Shown here: one piece after another, positions 43,172 through 49,862 of the stretch
Layout of the letters: the number at the start of each line of letters is the position of its first letter
How positions within the stretch are numbered: position 1 is the stretch's first letter
Origin: Streptomyces noursei
GTDB taxonomy: Bacteria; Actinomycetota; Actinomycetes; Streptomycetales; Streptomycetaceae
Reading direction: 5' to 3'
Length of the DNA stretch: 64,000 nt
Assembly (NCBI RefSeq): GCF_001646665.1
Contig: NZ_LWBU01000091.1
Coordinates: 62,001-126,000, forward strand
Notes under the pieces: model-generated
The model's database searches: none
What the model saw: only the letters and a program-made list of their open reading frames with translations
Told to the model about the DNA's origin: nothing
Made by a program: the position numbers and the translations under genes

Positions 43172-44062
43172 TTATGCAGCTCCTTCAAGGGTGCGGCCGG
43201 TGCCGCGGTACTGCTCCCAGGTCCAGCCGAGCGTGCGGCGGGCCATGATGCCGACGGCGTGCCGGCGGTACTTGGCCGTGCCCCGTACGTCGTCGATCGG
43301 GTTGCAGGCCCCGGAGGCGAGCTCCGCGAACTGCTTGGCGATCGAGGGAGTGATGATCTTGCCGCTCTCCCAGAACCCGCCCTCTTCGAGCGCGGCGTTC
43401 AGGAACTCCTCGGCCTCCTTCGCCCGTACGGGTGTGGGGGCGGCCGAGCCGATGCCGGTCCGAACGGTCCGGGTCTCCGGGTGCAGCGCCAGACCGAACG
43501 CGCACACCGCGATCACCATCGCGTTGCGAGTACCCACCTTGGAGTACTGCTGCGGCCCGTCGGCCTTCTTGATGTGGACGGTCTTGATCAGCTCGTCCGG
43601 CTGGAGCGCGTTGCGCTTCACGCCCGTGTAGAACGCGTCGATCGGGATGAAGCGGGAGCCGCGCACGGACTCCACCTCCACCTCGGCACCGGCCGCCAGC
43701 AGGGCGGGGTGCGCGTCGCCGGCCGGGGACGCCGTGCCCAGGTTGCCGCCGACACCACCGCGGTTGCGGATCTGCGGCGAGGCCACGGTGTGGGAGGCGA
43801 GCGCCAGGCCGGGCAGCTCGGCCCGCAGGTGCTCCATGATCTCGGTGTACGGGACGGAGGCGCCCAGCCGGACGTTCTCCTCGCCGACCTCCCACTCGCG
43901 GAGCAGCTCGATGCGGTTGAGGTCCAGCAGGTACTCGGGCCGCCGGTGGTCGAAGTTGATCTCGACCATGACATCGGTGCCACCCGCGATGGGCACAGCC
44001 GTGGGGTGCTCGGCCTTCGCGGCGAGCGCTTCCTCCCAGCTGGCGGGGCGAAGGAAGTCCAT
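43172..44062 (-). CDS. Xanthine dehydrogenase, FAD subunit
   Basis: This 296-aa subunit is read from ATG at 44062 (MDFLRPASWEEALAAKAEHP) with AGAAGAGAG upstream; the frame stays open further upstream but that part is the promoter region. It has FAD-binding PIAGGTDVMVEINFD and QIRNRGGVGGNLGTASPAGD, and lacks the 4Fe-4S insertion of the PaoB-like protein at 31436. It is the first gene of the xanthine dehydrogenase operon and diverges from the PucR regulator. Confidence 0.93.
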   Translation of the reverse strand: MDFLRPASWEEALAAKAEHPTAVPIAGGTDVMVEINFDHRRPEYLLDLNRIELLREWEVGEENVRLGASVPYTEIMEHLRAELPGLALASHTVASPQIRNRGGVGGNLGTASPAGDAHPALLAAGAEVEVESVRGSRFIPIDAFYTGVKRNALQPDELIKTVHIKKADGPQQYSKVGTRNAMVIAVCAFGLALHPETRTVRTGIGSAAPTPVRAKEAEEFLNAALEEGGFWESGKIITPSIAKQFAELASGACNPIDDVRGTAKYRRHAVGIMARRTLGWTWEQYRGTGRTLEGAA

Positions 44063-44079
44063 GAGTGGCTCTCTTCTAC

Positions 44080-44149
44080 GTGATCCGGTGATCACTGGTC
44101 CCGCGGTGGGTGATCGTGGCGATCGACTCGTTCCGGGTTCCGCGTGATC
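44080..44149. promoter_or_regulatory. Four GTGATC direct repeats in the xdh/pucR divergent gap
   Basis: GTGATC occurs at 44080, 44088, 44110 and 44144; the second is part of a GTGATCAC palindrome. They lie just upstream of the xanthine dehydrogenase start (44062) in the 356-bp gap 44063-44418. A separate GGAGCA/TGCTCC dyad spans 44225-44250. These are candidate sites for PucR or another purine regulator. No other gene is visible in the gap. Confidence 0.4.
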
Positions 44150-44418
44150 AGTTGCTTCGCTGGGGCTCGGGGGACGGCCGGCCCTCGTGTTCGTCTTCAT
44201 GTTCATGTGCTGTTAACGCGTCGTGGAGCAAGTACACCCAGCGGTGCTCCGCCCGGTGCAGTCACCGAAACCATGAAGCGGTTGGCCGGTCACCCGCCGA
44301 GTCTTGTAGATTCGAACGAAAGACGAGGAGCAGTAACCTCGCCGTTTCCCCCCGGAAACGGTGGCCACGGCTCACCGGCAACAACGAGACACCCACGAGA
44401 CAGATCGGCGGCGATCAC

Positions 44419-46137
44419 ATGCGGCTGCGCGCACTGCTGGAGACCGATGCGCTGGGGCTGCGGCTGCTCGGCGGCGAGGACGAGCTCGACCGCACGGTCC
44501 GCGGCGTGATGACGACGGACCTGCGGGACCCCAGCAGGTACCTCTCCGGGGGCGAGCTGGTGCTCACCGGTCTGGCCTGGCGCCGGGACGCGGCCGACAC
44601 CGAGCCCTTCGTCCGCATCCTGGCGAGCGCCGGGGTGGCGGGCCTGGCGGCGGGCGAGGCGGAGCTGGGAGCGATCCCCGACGATCTCGTGCAGGCGTGT
44701 TTGCGCCACCGCCTCCCGCTGTTCGCGGTGAACGAGTCGGTTGCTTTCGCAACTATCACCGAGCACGTTGTTCGACAGGTGTCGGGTGAACGGGCCGGCG
44801 ACCTCGCGGCGGTCGTCGATCGCCACAGAAGACTGATGACATCCGGTCCGGCGGGCGGCGGCCCGGAGGTGGTCCTCGACCTCCTCGGCTCCGACCTGGA
44901 CCTTCGCGCCTGGGTGCTGTCACCGACCGGACGGCAGATCGCCGGGGCGGGCGCCCCGCTGCCCCCCGGGATCGGCGCCGCCCTGGCCGGCGAGCACCTG
45001 TCCGCCACGCGCACCGGGCGGCGCGGTCCGCACCGGGCCGTCGTGCGTGGCCTGACGTACTCGCTCTTCCCGATCCGTAACACCGGGCGCGGCGCCGCGC
45101 CCGCCACCCGCGACGTCCGGGAGACGGTGCTCTCGGACTGGCTGCTGGCCGTCGAGGCGGACGCCGGCGACTGGCCTGCCGCCCGGCTGGACCTGCTCCA
45201 GGGGGTCACGCAGCTCATCGCCGTCGAGCGGGACCGGCGGGACGCCGCCCGCACGGTACGGCGGCGGCTGGCCCAGGAGGTCCTGGAGCTGGTGCAGACG
45301 GGCGCCCCGCCCGCCGAGATCGCCGCCCGCCTCCGGGTGGCCGCCCCGGTGCTGCTGCCGGGGCTCGGGACGGCACCGCACTGGCAGGTCGTGGTGGCGC
45401 GGGTCGAGTGGGGCGAGGGCGGTACCGGCGCGCCGGGCATCGACGCCGGGCCGGTCGCCCAGTCGCTGCTGGAGGAGATCCTGGTCGACCCCGCGACGGC
45501 CGGCCCCGACTCGGCCGACCGCATCGCGGTGGCCCACACCGGGGACGAGGCCATCGCCCTGGTGCCGCTGCCTGCGGTGCCGGGCGCGGACGGGGACGCC
45601 CCGGCGGAGGAGGACGACGCGGCTCCCGCCCCGGACGGCGGCGGGCTGCACGCCGACGCCCTGCTGGCCGCCGTGCGCGGGCCCCTGTCGGCGGGGCTTG
45701 CGGACGACGGGCGCCTGACCCTGGGCGTGAGCGCCGCCGTGCACTCGGCCGAGGGACTGCGCGGTGCCCTGGAGGAGGCGCGGCACGCCCGGCGCGTGGC
45801 GGCGGCGCGGCCGGGGCGGGTGTGCGCGGCGGGCCACCACGAGCTGGCGTCGCACGTGCTGCTCCTGCCGTTCGTGCCGGACGACGTGCGGCGGGCGTTC
45901 ACGGCGCGGCTGCTGGACCCGCTGCGCGACTACGACCGGCGGCACCGGGCGGAGCTGATCCCGACGCTGGAGGCCTTCCTCGACTGCGACGGCTCCTGGA
46001 CGCGCTGCGCCGGCCGGCTGCACCTGCACGTCAACACCCTGCGGTACCGGGTGGGCAGGATCGAGCAGCTGACGGGGCGTGACCTGGCGCGGCTGGAGGA
46101 CAAGCTGGACTTCTTCCTCGCCCTGCGCATGTCCTGA
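44419..46137 (+). CDS. PucR family transcriptional regulator
   Basis: This 572-aa protein is read from ATG at 44419. It begins with the PucR N-terminal domain (MRLRALLETDALGLRLLGGE, MTTDLRDPSRYLSGGELVLT), has a GGDEF-like CdaR central region, and ends with the PucR HTH_30 domain (LEAFLDCDGSWTRCAGRLHL, HVNTLRYRVGRIEQLTGRDL). PucR of Bacillus activates purine catabolism; divergence from the xanthine dehydrogenase operon supports the same target here. The pentapeptide-repeat gene follows closely on the same strand. Confidence 0.93.
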   Translation: MRLRALLETDALGLRLLGGEDELDRTVRGVMTTDLRDPSRYLSGGELVLTGLAWRRDAADTEPFVRILASAGVAGLAAGEAELGAIPDDLVQACLRHRLPLFAVNESVAFATITEHVVRQVSGERAGDLAAVVDRHRRLMTSGPAGGGPEVVLDLLGSDLDLRAWVLSPTGRQIAGAGAPLPPGIGAALAGEHLSATRTGRRGPHRAVVRGLTYSLFPIRNTGRGAAPATRDVRETVLSDWLLAVEADAGDWPAARLDLLQGVTQLIAVERDRRDAARTVRRRLAQEVLELVQTGAPPAEIAARLRVAAPVLLPGLGTAPHWQVVVARVEWGEGGTGAPGIDAGPVAQSLLEEILVDPATAGPDSADRIAVAHTGDEAIALVPLPAVPGADGDAPAEEDDAAPAPDGGGLHADALLAAVRGPLSAGLADDGRLTLGVSAAVHSAEGLRGALEEARHARRVAAARPGRVCAAGHHELASHVLLLPFVPDDVRRAFTARLLDPLRDYDRRHRAELIPTLEAFLDCDGSWTRCAGRLHLHVNTLRYRVGRIEQLTGRDLARLEDKLDFFLALRMS

Positions 46138-46185
46138 CCGTTGACCATCAGCACCCGTACCGACACCCGAGAGAGCGAACACCAC

Positions 46186-47028
46186 GTGACGTCCGGACGG
46201 ACCGGCACCCAGACCGACCCCCTGCGCGGGGACTGCGCGAACTGCTTCGGCCTGTGCTGCGTCGCCCTGCCCTTCGCCGCCTCCGCGGATTTCGCCGTCG
46301 ACAAGCCGGCGGGCACCCCGTGCGCGAACCTGGCCGCGGACTTCCGCTGCGGCATCCACGAGCGGCTGCGCGACCGGGGCTTCACCGGCTGCACGGTGTA
46401 CGACTGTTTCGGCGCCGGGCAGAAGGTCTCGCAGATCACGTTCGGCGGCCGCGACTGGCGGCAGGACCCGGACACCGCACGGCGGATGTTCGCCGCGTTC
46501 CCGGTCGTACGGCACCTGCACGAACTCCTCGCGTACCTCACCGAGGTCCTGGCCCTGGAGCCCGCGAGCCGGCTGCACGACGAGGCGGGGCGTGTCCTCG
46601 CCGAGACCGAGCGGCTGACGCTCCTGCCGCCCGAGGAACTCGCCGCGCTGGACCTGGACGCGCACCGGCGGACCGTCGGCGACCTGTTGTCGCGGGCGGC
46701 CGAACTGGTCCGGGCGGGCGTGCCGGGCGCCAGGGGCAAGCGGAAGAACCGCCGCGGCGCCGACCTCATGGGCGCCCGGCTGGCCGGCGCGGACCTGCGC
46801 GGCGCGACGCTGCGCGGCGCGTACCTCATCGCGGCCGACCTCACCGGCGCCGACCTGCGGGACGCCGATCTGCTCGGGGCCGACCTCCGCGACGCGCGGC
46901 TCGCGGGCGCCGACCTGACCGGGGCGCTGTTCCTCACCCAGCCGCAGCTCAACGCGGCACGCGGCGACGACCGTACCGTGCTGCCCGCCCGGCTCACCCG
47001 CCCCGCGCACTGGACGCCGCGGCAGTAG
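46186..47028 (+). CDS. Pentapeptide repeat-containing protein with Cys-rich N-terminus
   Basis: This 280-aa protein is read from GTG at 46186, preceded by GAGAGAGCG; a TTG at 46141 is open but has no ribosome site. The N-terminal region is Cys-rich (CANCFGLCCVALPFAASADF, then CANLAADFRCGIHERLRDRG, FTGCTVYDCFG), resembling a metal-binding YkgJ-like or CxxCxxCC module. Residues about 195-265 form pentapeptide repeats of the A(D/N)LxG type (GADLMGARLAGADLRGATLR), which fold as a right-handed beta-helix. Some repeat proteins protect DNA gyrase; no such role can be inferred here. Confidence 0.85.
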   Translation: MTSGRTGTQTDPLRGDCANCFGLCCVALPFAASADFAVDKPAGTPCANLAADFRCGIHERLRDRGFTGCTVYDCFGAGQKVSQITFGGRDWRQDPDTARRMFAAFPVVRHLHELLAYLTEVLALEPASRLHDEAGRVLAETERLTLLPPEELAALDLDAHRRTVGDLLSRAAELVRAGVPGARGKRKNRRGADLMGARLAGADLRGATLRGAYLIAADLTGADLRDADLLGADLRDARLAGADLTGALFLTQPQLNAARGDDRTVLPARLTRPAHWTPRQ

Positions 47029-47086
47029 GCCCCGGCCCGGGCCCGGTGACGCGGGCCGCCGCCGGGTGCCGAGCGGTCCGGAGCGG

Positions 47087-47533
47087 TCAGTGGTGCGGGG
47101 CGCCTCCGGGCGGTGACGCGGGGCCCACGGCGAGCAGACGTGTGAAGTAGTCGTCGGGCATCGGCTCACCGACGGGGCGGCCCTCCGCCTCGATCCAGGC
47201 GTGCGCGGCGAAGGGCGGCACCACGCTCACCCCCGTGCACCAGGTGGGCCAGGTGCCGGTCAGCCGGCACAGCAGTGCGGCGCCCAGCGAGCGGGGCAGG
47301 CACCCGCGCGGTCCGGCGCACCGCAGGCTCACCGCGCACACGGCGTCGCGGGCTGCCTGCGCCCGGCCTGCGGTGGCGGGGCGCGCCCCGCGCCGCACGA
47401 CCTCCAGCACGGCCCGGATGCGGCGCGGCGGCAGGAGCGACAGCAGGACGGCGGGCACCAGCACCAGCCGGGCGGCGAGGCGGCGGCCGAAGGGCACGCC
47501 GGTGGGGATGTCCAGGGCGCTGGGCGTGGTCAT
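47087..47533 (-). CDS. Lasso peptide leader peptidase (B2, transglutaminase-like)
   Basis: This 148-aa protein is the lasso peptide B2 protease, with the catalytic Cys in GCLPRSLGAALLCRL, His in FAAHAWIEAEG and the downstream Asp region. It removes the leader from the precursor so that the cyclase can close the ring. The N-terminal hydrophobic helix (LVLVPAVLLSLLPPRRIRAV) is usual for this family. It overlaps the RRE gene by 4 bp (ATGA) and faces the pentapeptide gene tail to tail. Confidence 0.93.
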   Translation of the reverse strand: MTTPSALDIPTGVPFGRRLAARLVLVPAVLLSLLPPRRIRAVLEVVRRGARPATAGRAQAARDAVCAVSLRCAGPRGCLPRSLGAALLCRLTGTWPTWCTGVSVVPPFAAHAWIEAEGRPVGEPMPDDYFTRLLAVGPASPPGGAPHH

Positions 47534-47784
47534 GCGGCCAGCCCGGAGGCGCGCAGCTCGGCCACCAGCGCGGCGACGTCCGCCTCGGCGCCGGCCCGGT
47601 CGATGTCGTACGCGTCGGTGAGCGCCTCGACGGCCGCGGTCTCGTCGCCACTCTCCATCAGCACGCGCACGATCAGCGTGGCGGTGGGGTTCAGCTCCCA
47701 GTACTGCCCGTTGCGCTGGTCGAGGAGGACGGTGCCGTATCCGGTCTCCGTGGTGGAGACGTCGGTTCCGAAGCGCAGTGCCAT
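47530..47784 (-). CDS. Lasso peptide RRE protein (B1, PqqD-like)
   Basis: This 84-aa PqqD-like protein (GTDVSTTETGYGTVLLDQRN, GQYWELNPTATLIVRVLMES) is the RiPP recognition element that binds the precursor leader and hands it to the protease. ATG at 47784 has GGAAGGGAAG upstream. Unusually, its first 94 bp lie inside the 3' end of the cyclase gene in another frame. The stop overlaps the B2 start. Confidence 0.93.
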   Translation of the reverse strand: MALRFGTDVSTTETGYGTVLLDQRNGQYWELNPTATLIVRVLMESGDETAAVEALTDAYDIDRAGAEADVAALVAELRASGLAA

Positions 47785-49640
47785 GGTGACTTCCCTTCCT
47801 TCGAGAGTGCCGAGCGCGCCGCGAGGCCGCGCAGCCAGACCTCGCAGGCGATCGTCGAGTAGAGGACGGCGTCGCGCAGTCCGGGTGCGGACGGCCGCCG
47901 GGCGAGGCCGCGCAGCACCTCGGCGTCCACCAGGCCGAGCCGTGCGAGGTGAGGGTCCGCCCACAGTTCGGCCAGCTCCGCCCGGTGCTCCCGCAGTCCG
48001 TCGGCCGCGTCCATGGACGCGGCGGCCTTGTTGGTGCGGCGCAGGCAGACGTCCGGCACGACGCCGCGCATGGCGGCGGCGAGCAGGGGTTTGTACGCCC
48101 AGGGGGTGACGCGCTCCTCGGGGCGGACCGCGAGGCAGGCCTCGATCACCCGGTCGTCGAGGAACGGCGAGGCCATCGGCACCCCGGCGCCGACCGCCAT
48201 CCGATCCCACTGCCGGATGATCCGGGTGCAGGAGCGGATCTGCTCCAGGTCGGTGTGCATGCCCCGGTCCGGGTGCAGCGGTCGCGCGCCCGCCGCCGCC
48301 TCCCGGAGGGCCCGCCGCGCCGTCCGGGCCGCGTCGGGGGTCACCCAGTCGAAGAGGCGTGGGGGCACGCCCCAGCCGAGGCCGCTGTCGACCGAGCCGG
48401 GCAGCGGGTCGTGCAGGTGCCGTTCCGCGTCGGCGAGCCAGGCCCGGTAGGAGCGGGAGTCGGCCAGGGCGCGGAGGGTCCCGCCGAGCGGCCACTGCCA
48501 CAGGGCGCGGAACCCGCGCAGCTGCCGAAGGGCGAACAGCGGTCGCCGGCGCGCCAGTCGGTGGTAGTACGCCTCGGAGCACCAGGCGACGTGGTCGCCG
48601 CCGATGCCGGTCAGGTGGAGGCGGCTGCCGCGCCCGGCCATGGCCGGCAGGTGGTGCAGGACCCGCGAGCGGTCCATGACGCCGATCGTGGGTTCGTCCA
48701 GCAGGTCGTCGATGTCGAGCAGGTCGGTGTAGACCAGCGGTGAAGCGTGGGGATCCCAGACGACGTGCTCGGTGTCCGGCAGGAACCGGGCGGCCTGCCG
48801 GGCCCACTGGAGGTCGGTGTCGGCCGGGTCGCGCCCGGGCCAGGTGCTGGCCACCACACGGGCGGGCGAGCGGTCGGCGAGGAAGCAGATGGTGGTGGAG
48901 TCCAGCCCGCCGGACAGGTCGCAACTGACCACGCCACCCTGGCGGGTGCGGGCGTCGACCGCCTCGGTCAGGGCTTCGCGGACCAGCGGCGCCCCGGCGG
49001 CGAGCGTCCGGACCGGTTCCGGGGGCGTCCACCACCGCGAGTGGCGGACGGTACGCCCGTCCGGGCCGACGACGAGCGCCTCGCCGGGCGGTACGGCGGT
49101 GACACCGCGCCACATCGGCGCCTCCCCGAGCGGGTGGGGCACGGGCCACAACAGCCGTACGGCCAGCTGCTCCTCGTCCGGGGCGAGGCCCAGCGCCGCG
49201 GCGAGCACGTCGGCGCGGGTGGCGGCCACCGTCACGCCCTCGATCCGGGCGTGGAACACCAGCCGCAGGCCGGACGCGGTGCCCTGCGCCCTGAGCCGGC
49301 CGTCGAGCGCGGCCAGGAGGTGGCAACTGCCGGGGAGGCTACGGGCCAGGGCGTCGAGCCGGGCGATGTCCCGCAACCGCGCGGCGTGGCGGCGCAGCGC
49401 GTCCGGGTCGAGGGTGTGGCAGCCGATGAGGGCGAGCGCGGTGGAGCCCGCGCGGGCGGTCACCATCTCGTCGTCCCGCCAGTGGCCGACCAGCCAGGGG
49501 CGGCCCGAGGGGTGCGGCAGCGTGCGCGTACCGGGGCGGGCGAAGAACCGGGCCACGGCGGCCGCGGCGTCGAGGTCGGGAAGGACCGCGACGTGCGCGT
49601 CACCGGGGCCCGGGCCCGCACTTTCGTGCGCTTCAGTCAT
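47691..49640 (-). CDS. Lasso cyclase (asparagine synthetase-like, C protein)
   Basis: This 649-aa protein is a lasso cyclase, with the ATP-binding SGGLDST motif (VVSCDLSGGLDSTTICFLAD) of asparagine synthetase B and an N-terminal glutaminase-like domain that lacks the catalytic Cys2. It adenylates the ring Asp/Glu side chain and closes the isopeptide bond. The last about 31 residues (after LAARSALSKEGK) overlap the RRE gene by 94 bp and look like an out-of-frame shadow with no family resemblance, so the functional protein probably ends near residue 615 or the stop has been lost. The ATG at 49640 is 26 bp after the precursor stop. Confidence 0.92.
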   Translation of the reverse strand: MTEAHESAGPGPGDAHVAVLPDLDAAAAVARFFARPGTRTLPHPSGRPWLVGHWRDDEMVTARAGSTALALIGCHTLDPDALRRHAARLRDIARLDALARSLPGSCHLLAALDGRLRAQGTASGLRLVFHARIEGVTVAATRADVLAAALGLAPDEEQLAVRLLWPVPHPLGEAPMWRGVTAVPPGEALVVGPDGRTVRHSRWWTPPEPVRTLAAGAPLVREALTEAVDARTRQGGVVSCDLSGGLDSTTICFLADRSPARVVASTWPGRDPADTDLQWARQAARFLPDTEHVVWDPHASPLVYTDLLDIDDLLDEPTIGVMDRSRVLHHLPAMAGRGSRLHLTGIGGDHVAWCSEAYYHRLARRRPLFALRQLRGFRALWQWPLGGTLRALADSRSYRAWLADAERHLHDPLPGSVDSGLGWGVPPRLFDWVTPDAARTARRALREAAAGARPLHPDRGMHTDLEQIRSCTRIIRQWDRMAVGAGVPMASPFLDDRVIEACLAVRPEERVTPWAYKPLLAAAMRGVVPDVCLRRTNKAAASMDAADGLREHRAELAELWADPHLARLGLVDAEVLRGLARRPSAPGLRDAVLYSTIACEVWLRGLAARSALSKEGKSPWHCASEPTSPPRRPDTAPSSSTSATGSTGS

Positions 49641-49665
49641 GAGACCGAGGGATCGCCGTCGGCCG

Positions 49666-49776
49666 TCAGTTCTTGCTGAGGACGAGACGGTCGTTGCCCG
49701 CCAGGCCCAGCAGGCCGGTCTGCTTGCGGAACGATCCGAGCCGGACGAGCGTCGGCGCCTCGTAGGCCTTCTTCAT
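49666..49776 (-). CDS. Lasso peptide precursor, citrulassin A type
   Basis: This 36-aa precursor starts at ATG (49776) with a strong AGAAGGAG site 5 bases upstream. The leader carries the RRE-recognition pattern Y-x2-P-x-L-x3-G-x-F (YEAPTLVRLGSF) and the essential Thr at the penultimate leader position (RKQTG). The core is LLGLAGNDRLVLSKN: Leu1, with Asp8 as the ring acceptor, giving an 8-residue macrolactam and a 7-residue tail. I recognise this core as citrulassin A, whose Arg9 is converted to citrulline by a peptidyl arginine deiminase encoded elsewhere; no such gene is in this window. No exporter gene is present in the cluster. Confidence 0.93.
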   Translation of the reverse strand: MKKAYEAPTLVRLGSFRKQTGLLGLAGNDRLVLSKN

Positions 49777-49800
49777 GACGTCTCCTTCTGCTTGGTTCGC

Positions 49801-49839
49801 CACCCGCCCTGCGATGGCGGGTGACCGTCCTTCGGAAGG
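49801..49839 (-). promoter_or_regulatory. Hairpins in the lasso precursor 5' leader
   Basis: CACCCGCC (49801-49808) and GGCGGGTG (49816-49823) give an 8-bp stem, and CCTTC/GAAGG (49829-49839) a second small dyad, between the likely promoter and the precursor start at 49776. They may shape the 5' untranslated region or attenuate transcription. Confidence 0.4.
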
Positions 49840-49862
49840 TAGACGCGGTGGAGGGGGACACC

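Follow-up and report, generated by a model that had tools for sequence, protein, structure and literature searches.

A citrulassin A gene cluster without its exporter gene in Streptomyces noursei, and a remote, probably secreted arginine deiminase

A citrulassin cluster that carries neither a deiminase gene nor a transporter gene raises the question of where, and when relative to export, the arginine of this lasso peptide would be converted to citrulline. Citrulassins are deiminated by remote enzymes of the PF03068 type, according to the available parts of two papers (PMC9266682, PMC8498205), and the accessible portion of a third counts a remote deiminase in 15 of its 34 citrulassin strains (PMC12971885). 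The precise timing of the step is called mysterious in the sections available from one of these (PMC8498205), and future work on it is called necessary in those from another (PMC9266682). A literature search by title, with Harris 2020 outside its scope, found no paper on secretion of the citrulassin deiminase. The cluster considered here lies in a draft genome of S. noursei (7.64 Mb in 413 contigs), within the stretch of 64,000 nucleotides that was analysed and is called the window below (G000:C91:62001-126000).

Four genes in the order A-C-B1-B2 occupy positions 47087-49776 of the window on the minus strand, from the precursor start at 49776 to the B2 stop at 47087 (Table 1). The precursor is hit both by Pfam DUF5972 (1.2e-13) and by the lasso leader L3 model of NCBIfam (1.9e-6), B2 matches lasso_biosyn_B2 (5.8e-34), B1 matches lasso_PqqD_Strm (7.8e-31), and the cyclase matches Pfam Asn_synthase (4.1e-51), each of them over the cut-off. 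The NCBIfam cyclase models all scored below their own cut-offs, the best being macrolact_Ik_Al with 236.8 of 300 bits. The split-B-type gene set of precursor, cyclase, RRE and leader peptidase is complete, with the cyclase assigned by Pfam only. Going by family membership, B1 would bind the leader, B2 would cut it off after Gly-1, and C would join Leu1 to Asp8 around the threaded tail. A citrulassin precursor is found at E < 1e-9 in 46 of 392 genomes of the genus, this one included (3 of 49 genomes whose precursor matches were all weak, at E above 1e-4, were dropped), and the order A-C-B1-B2 recurs in 47 of 48 sequences examined, so the cluster is not a product of chance. One other genome (G251) has, besides an intact cluster, an isolated citrulassin precursor together with a short match to the cyclase (L119, G251:C3:111820-123927), a locus at which B1 and B2 were not found. 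The S. noursei genome also holds a second lasso cluster (L099:8287-13126, on G000:C384), with a precursor MAYERPTLTKVGDFQKVTG/LAGTGSPDLLGGHSLL, a cyclase, B2 and an ABC exporter.

Table 1. Features of the citrulassin locus, in positions of the window
Feature	Position	Strand	Basis
citA: 36-aa lasso precursor, leader MKKAYEAPTLVRLGSFRKQTG, core LLGLAGNDRLVLSKN	49669..49776 (stop 49666-49668)	-	Pfam/NCBIfam and core identity
citC: lasso cyclase, asparagine-synthase family	47691..49640	-	Pfam match
citB1 (E): RRE, PqqD-like leader-binding protein	47530..47784	-	NCBIfam match
citB2 (B): leader peptidase, transglutaminase-like	47087..47533	-	Pfam/NCBIfam profile match
Site of ABC exporter gene D in the syntenic relative NRRL S-118 (L147)	47016..47117	none	Flank comparison
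Pentapeptide-repeat protein gene, convergent neighbour, common to L147; left edge of missing exporter	46141..47028	+	ORF, profile and synteny

The preliminary description of this DNA had recognized the core as that of citrulassin A and had pointed to Thr at leader position -2 and to Asp8. Both residues are present in the precursor translation, and the core agrees in every letter with the citrulassin A core printed in the available part of PMC6856326, which bears the assignment out. Judged by this identity, the cluster encodes the citrulassin A peptide, a known compound. Its calculated [M+2H]2+ is m/z 782.962 with Arg9 and 783.454 with citrulline at that position; for citrulassin N this calculation yields 820.9519, the calculated value in print. 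The core fits the citrulassin pattern of Gly6, Asp8, Arg9 and a Ser-Lys-Asn end; its 15 residues are those of citrulassin A from S. albulus NRRL B-3066 (Tietz 2017, as given in the parts available of PMC6856326, PMC9266682 and PMC8498205), a strain in which, as in the present one, the deiminase gene lies outside the cluster. Citrulassin N and the 34 citrulassin strains of PMC12971885, as far as its available text describes them, share the ring and tail pattern and Arg9 with the window but differ in their cores, and LLGLAGNDRLVLSKN is absent from those 34. Among the 97 further distinct clusters from the genus sample and the best 80 of 117 named relatives, a selection that may omit records very near the window, this core does not recur; other carriers are possible. 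Arg9 is present in 97 of the 98 distinct clusters in this set of genus sample and best 80 of 117 named relatives. The sole exception has Glu9 (L146, G219:C2:110176-122280); it is a distant citrulassin-like cluster with the core LLGLRGNDELVLDKH, without a D gene of the family type and in a genome without a deiminase. Among the sampled citrulassin genomes that lack a deiminase, 28 of 29 retain Arg9, and the arginine therefore appears to matter even where nothing deiminates it.

The usual citrulassin layout, in the genus sample and the best 80 of 117 named relatives, is A-C-B1-B2-D, where D is an ABC exporter of about 600 aa. The survey for D covered up to 12 kb of sequence around each genus-sample precursor as well as these best 80 of 117; removal of duplicates, with L119 and L195 skipped, reduced 128 sequences to 98 distinct clusters, of which 92 were assessable and the other 6 have too little sequence past B2. 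Of the 92, 82 have a full D, 1 has a remnant and 9 have none, among these the window, whose cluster does not belong with the citrulassin clusters that have D after B2. The lack of a transporter gene had been remarked on before. The absence itself holds, in that no citrulassin-type exporter adjoins the cluster, but the arrangement is not the ordinary one, with 82 of 92 assessable clusters carrying D and a close relative having it at the very site.

That relative, Streptomyces sp. NRRL S-118, is the closest among the best 80 of 117 (86% cyclase identity), and it matches the window on both sides, at 43584-47016 and 47117-49846. The stretch between the matching flanks measures 1992 bases in NRRL S-118, where it contains D, and about 100 in the window. 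The two strains share the flanking genes and each has a deiminase in its genome; they differ in the core, which is LLAFHGNDRLILSKN in NRRL S-118, and in the presence there of D between B2 and the pentapeptide gene. Because D is the common state, these data are most simply read as a loss of D in the window's lineage, although NRRL S-118 could in principle have gained it. On a quickly built cyclase tree with weak support at 28 of its 95 inner branches, absence of D calls for 9 changes, at least 8 of them on well-supported branches; such a count gives no direction, and the changes are most simply losses.

Relocation of D within the genome was considered and rejected. The assembly holds no full-length match above 48% identity; the best reach 47-48% (contig C280) and 45-46% (contig C384), and identity to the query is 66-82% among the D orthologues of the genus sample, bar one distant match of 37%. 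The C280 exporter adjoins trypsin/PDZ, methyltransferase and CobU genes, and that on C384 is part of the second lasso cluster. A link between absence of D and presence of a deiminase was likewise rejected: in the genus sample, with 2 truncated clusters left out, D is lacking in 1 of 16 clusters whose genome has a deiminase and in 2 of 28 whose genome has none (p = 1). Among the best 80 of 117 named relatives, 8 clusters lack a full D (one has a remnant), and a deiminase occurs in 2 of their genomes, one of which also has a second cluster with D. Streptomyces ficellus AS11 (L150, L158) has two citrulassin clusters that differ in their cores, and only one of them includes D.

There is a precedent for export without a cluster-borne transporter. 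The chaxapeptin cluster of S. leeuwenhoekii resembles that of the window in having no transporter gene, and the peptide is secreted regardless, according to the available part of PMC6856326. Chaxapeptin belongs to another peptide family, however, and its secretion was shown by experiment (PMC6856326, as far as available), whereas the window is known from genes alone. The same paper, in its available part, reports leepeptin as undetected without its own transporter genes, so secretion without a cluster transporter is not a general ability of lasso peptides.

The deiminase itself is encoded elsewhere. The preliminary description found no peptidyl arginine deiminase in the cluster, which is correct for the locus, and suggested a search of the rest of the genome. 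That search gave a single PF03068 match (E <= 0.001), at G000:C169:5930-7237 with E 3e-113. The citrulassin cluster sits on a different contig, about 109 kb in from the nearer end, so it and the deiminase gene are separated by at least about 109 kb. The predicted protein aligns with human PAD3 across the catalytic domain, including an Asp, a His, an Asp and a Cys that are invariant in 67 of 67 deiminase rows and that we take to be the catalytic residues of PADs. The sequence family and these four residues are common to human PAD2/3/4 and the C169 enzyme; to our knowledge the human proteins, unlike the bacterial one, have no bacterial signal peptide. By family score and catalytic residues, the C169 gene encodes a PF03068 peptidyl arginine deiminase.

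The deiminase search was controlled on 15 genomes reached through named loci, by comparison with published states. No deiminase was found, in agreement with print, in S. katrae NRRL B-16271, the very strain that the available part of PMC9266682 reports as a native producer of des-citrulassin D. Agreement with the accessible table of PMC12971885 was obtained for NRRL S-337 (same strain, absent), for S. calvus and S. cinerochromogenes (other strains of the species, absent) and for S. aureocirculatus (another strain of the species, present). S. torulosus was positive; either it or S. avermitilis makes the citrulline form, the available text of PMC8498205 not being plain on which. Fragments of PF03068 deiminases occur in several genomes of the genus (G009, G350, G319 and G290), suggesting repeated decay of the gene.

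The start of the S. noursei deiminase bears on where it would act. From a GTG codon at L001:880, preceded by GAAGGGA, the predicted protein runs from a charged start through a hydrophobic stretch to an Ala-X-Ala motif, with Arg-Arg before the hydrophobic stretch. A rule of our own making (a net positive start, a 10-residue hydrophobic window and Ala-X-Ala after it) was applied across the family. Of 80 deiminase rows, 12 fragments and one with an internal stop (G128) were left unscored; 67 were taken, and 3 of these had no anchor for the rule. It was passed by 54 of the 64 scored deiminases, 10 failing, versus 1 of 30 cyclase N-termini, with start codons picked freely for the deiminases and with similar but not identical freedom for the cyclase controls. 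The 18 deiminase rows of citrulassin genomes comprise 14 that pass, 2 that fail, one without anchor and one cut by a contig end, and 5 of 5 further full-length deiminases pass as well (the S. torulosus fragments L242 and L243 were not scored among these). An EF-hand-like stretch, DxNRDGxVD, is found in 52 of 67 deiminases, usually just past the predicted cut. In the main deiminase group, 55 of 55 retain the equivalents of Gln349, Glu353 and Glu411, presumably the calcium site residues of human PADs. The C169 deiminase is thus probably secreted, and because it starts with a signal-peptide-like sequence, deimination would probably occur outside the cell, after export. Its action on the exported lasso would then be calcium-dependent as well as extracellular.

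Whether this enzyme serves citrulassin in particular can be judged from its distribution. PF03068 matches occur in 66 of the 392 genus genomes (56 strong, 7 divergent and 3 only as fragments). A deiminase is present in 17 of 46 citrulassin genomes versus 49 of the remaining 346 (odds ratio 3.6, Fisher p 4.7e-4, uncorrected for kinship); with strong deiminases only, the association is weaker, at 14 of 46 versus 42 of 346 (p 0.0026, likewise uncorrected for kinship). Deiminase and citrulassin precursor are linked across the genus, and at the same time the precursor is missing from 49 of the 66 genomes with a deiminase, and the deiminase from 29 of the 46 genomes with a citrulassin precursor. A clade of deiminases dedicated to citrulassin was looked for and rejected, the deiminases of citrulassin genomes being scattered over the tree. 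The citrulassin label changes 13 times on that tree, which has some long branches, versus a shuffled mean of 16.0, and 14 of 500 shuffles are as low; there is slight clustering without a dedicated clade. Because most deiminase genomes lack the precursor and nearly every cluster has Arg9 with or without the enzyme, the deiminase gives the impression of a general enzyme and not of one dedicated to citrulassin.

Taken as a whole, it is fairly likely that citrulassin A is made, exported without D, and deiminated outside the cell by the C169 enzyme. The dedicated exporter having been lost, export, if any, would go through another transporter, as the available part of PMC6856326 reports for chaxapeptin; the remote deiminase would then turn Arg9 into citrulline on the folded lasso already outside, and citrulline would report that export took place. 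The sequence itself shows the cluster and its core, the deiminase gene with its signal-peptide-like start, and that D is missing; we infer the place and order of deimination, the substitute export and the actual production of the peptide. A weak point is that a peptide kept inside the cell for want of D would be missed by a secreted deiminase. It is possible, though unlikely, that the cluster makes des-citrulassin A, the peptide staying inside or leaving too poorly while the secreted enzyme serves other substrates. The missing D, with no close full-length substitute in the assembly, the frequency of deiminases without citrulassin, and the retention of Arg9 in deiminase-free genomes, from which arginine itself would be viable, all fit that outcome; set against it are the secretion of chaxapeptin and the fact that the identical core is known to carry citrulline as citrulassin A (both from the available part of PMC6856326).

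Somewhat less probable still is that the deiminase works in the cytosol, on the precursor or on the peptide once folded, either before it is itself secreted or in the course of that secretion, with its signal peptide irrelevant to timing. If exported by Tat the enzyme would fold inside first, and the Arg-Arg before the hydrophobic stretch is in keeping with this. Cytosolic free calcium is low, however, and retention of the presumed calcium site therefore speaks against cytosolic action, as do the secretion-like starts of most of the family. The timing is left open in the available parts of PMC9266682 and PMC8498205, which leaves room for such a course. To a similarly small degree one may suspect that the cluster is decaying, its exporter gone, its cyclase stop lost and its product no longer made. 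The cyclase frame does extend 94 bases into B1 (window 47691-47784), whereas the cyclase ends ahead of B1 in each of 46 other clusters measured (in three named clusters, among the best 80 of 117, the overlap is 4 bases). But NRRL S-118, in which D is still present, has an overlap of 112 bases, for which reason a sequencing error was also rejected. All four genes (A, C, B1 and B2) are open, and between the window and NRRL S-118 they show dN/dS values in the range 0.19-0.33, though much of the time that these values reflect may predate the loss of D. The remaining cluster genes look maintained. The odds given to these rivals overlap one another, and with the main reading they do not sum to one.

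Beyond the preliminary description, the analysis adds a deiminase in the genome, probably secreted, and a missing exporter that departs from the family layout. The wider proposition is evenly poised: that citrulassin is deiminated outside the cell by a secreted Streptomyces enzyme of general purpose, one that evolved for something other than lasso peptides, and that citrulline marks export, here without a dedicated transporter. Should deimination take place there, citrulline in the peptide would signal that it had been exported, and this D-less, deiminase-positive strain would be a clean test. A signal peptide on the deiminase family would make the timing question directly and cheaply testable. 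The clean loss of D beside an otherwise open cluster would be a natural experiment on the need of lasso peptides for a transporter of their own.
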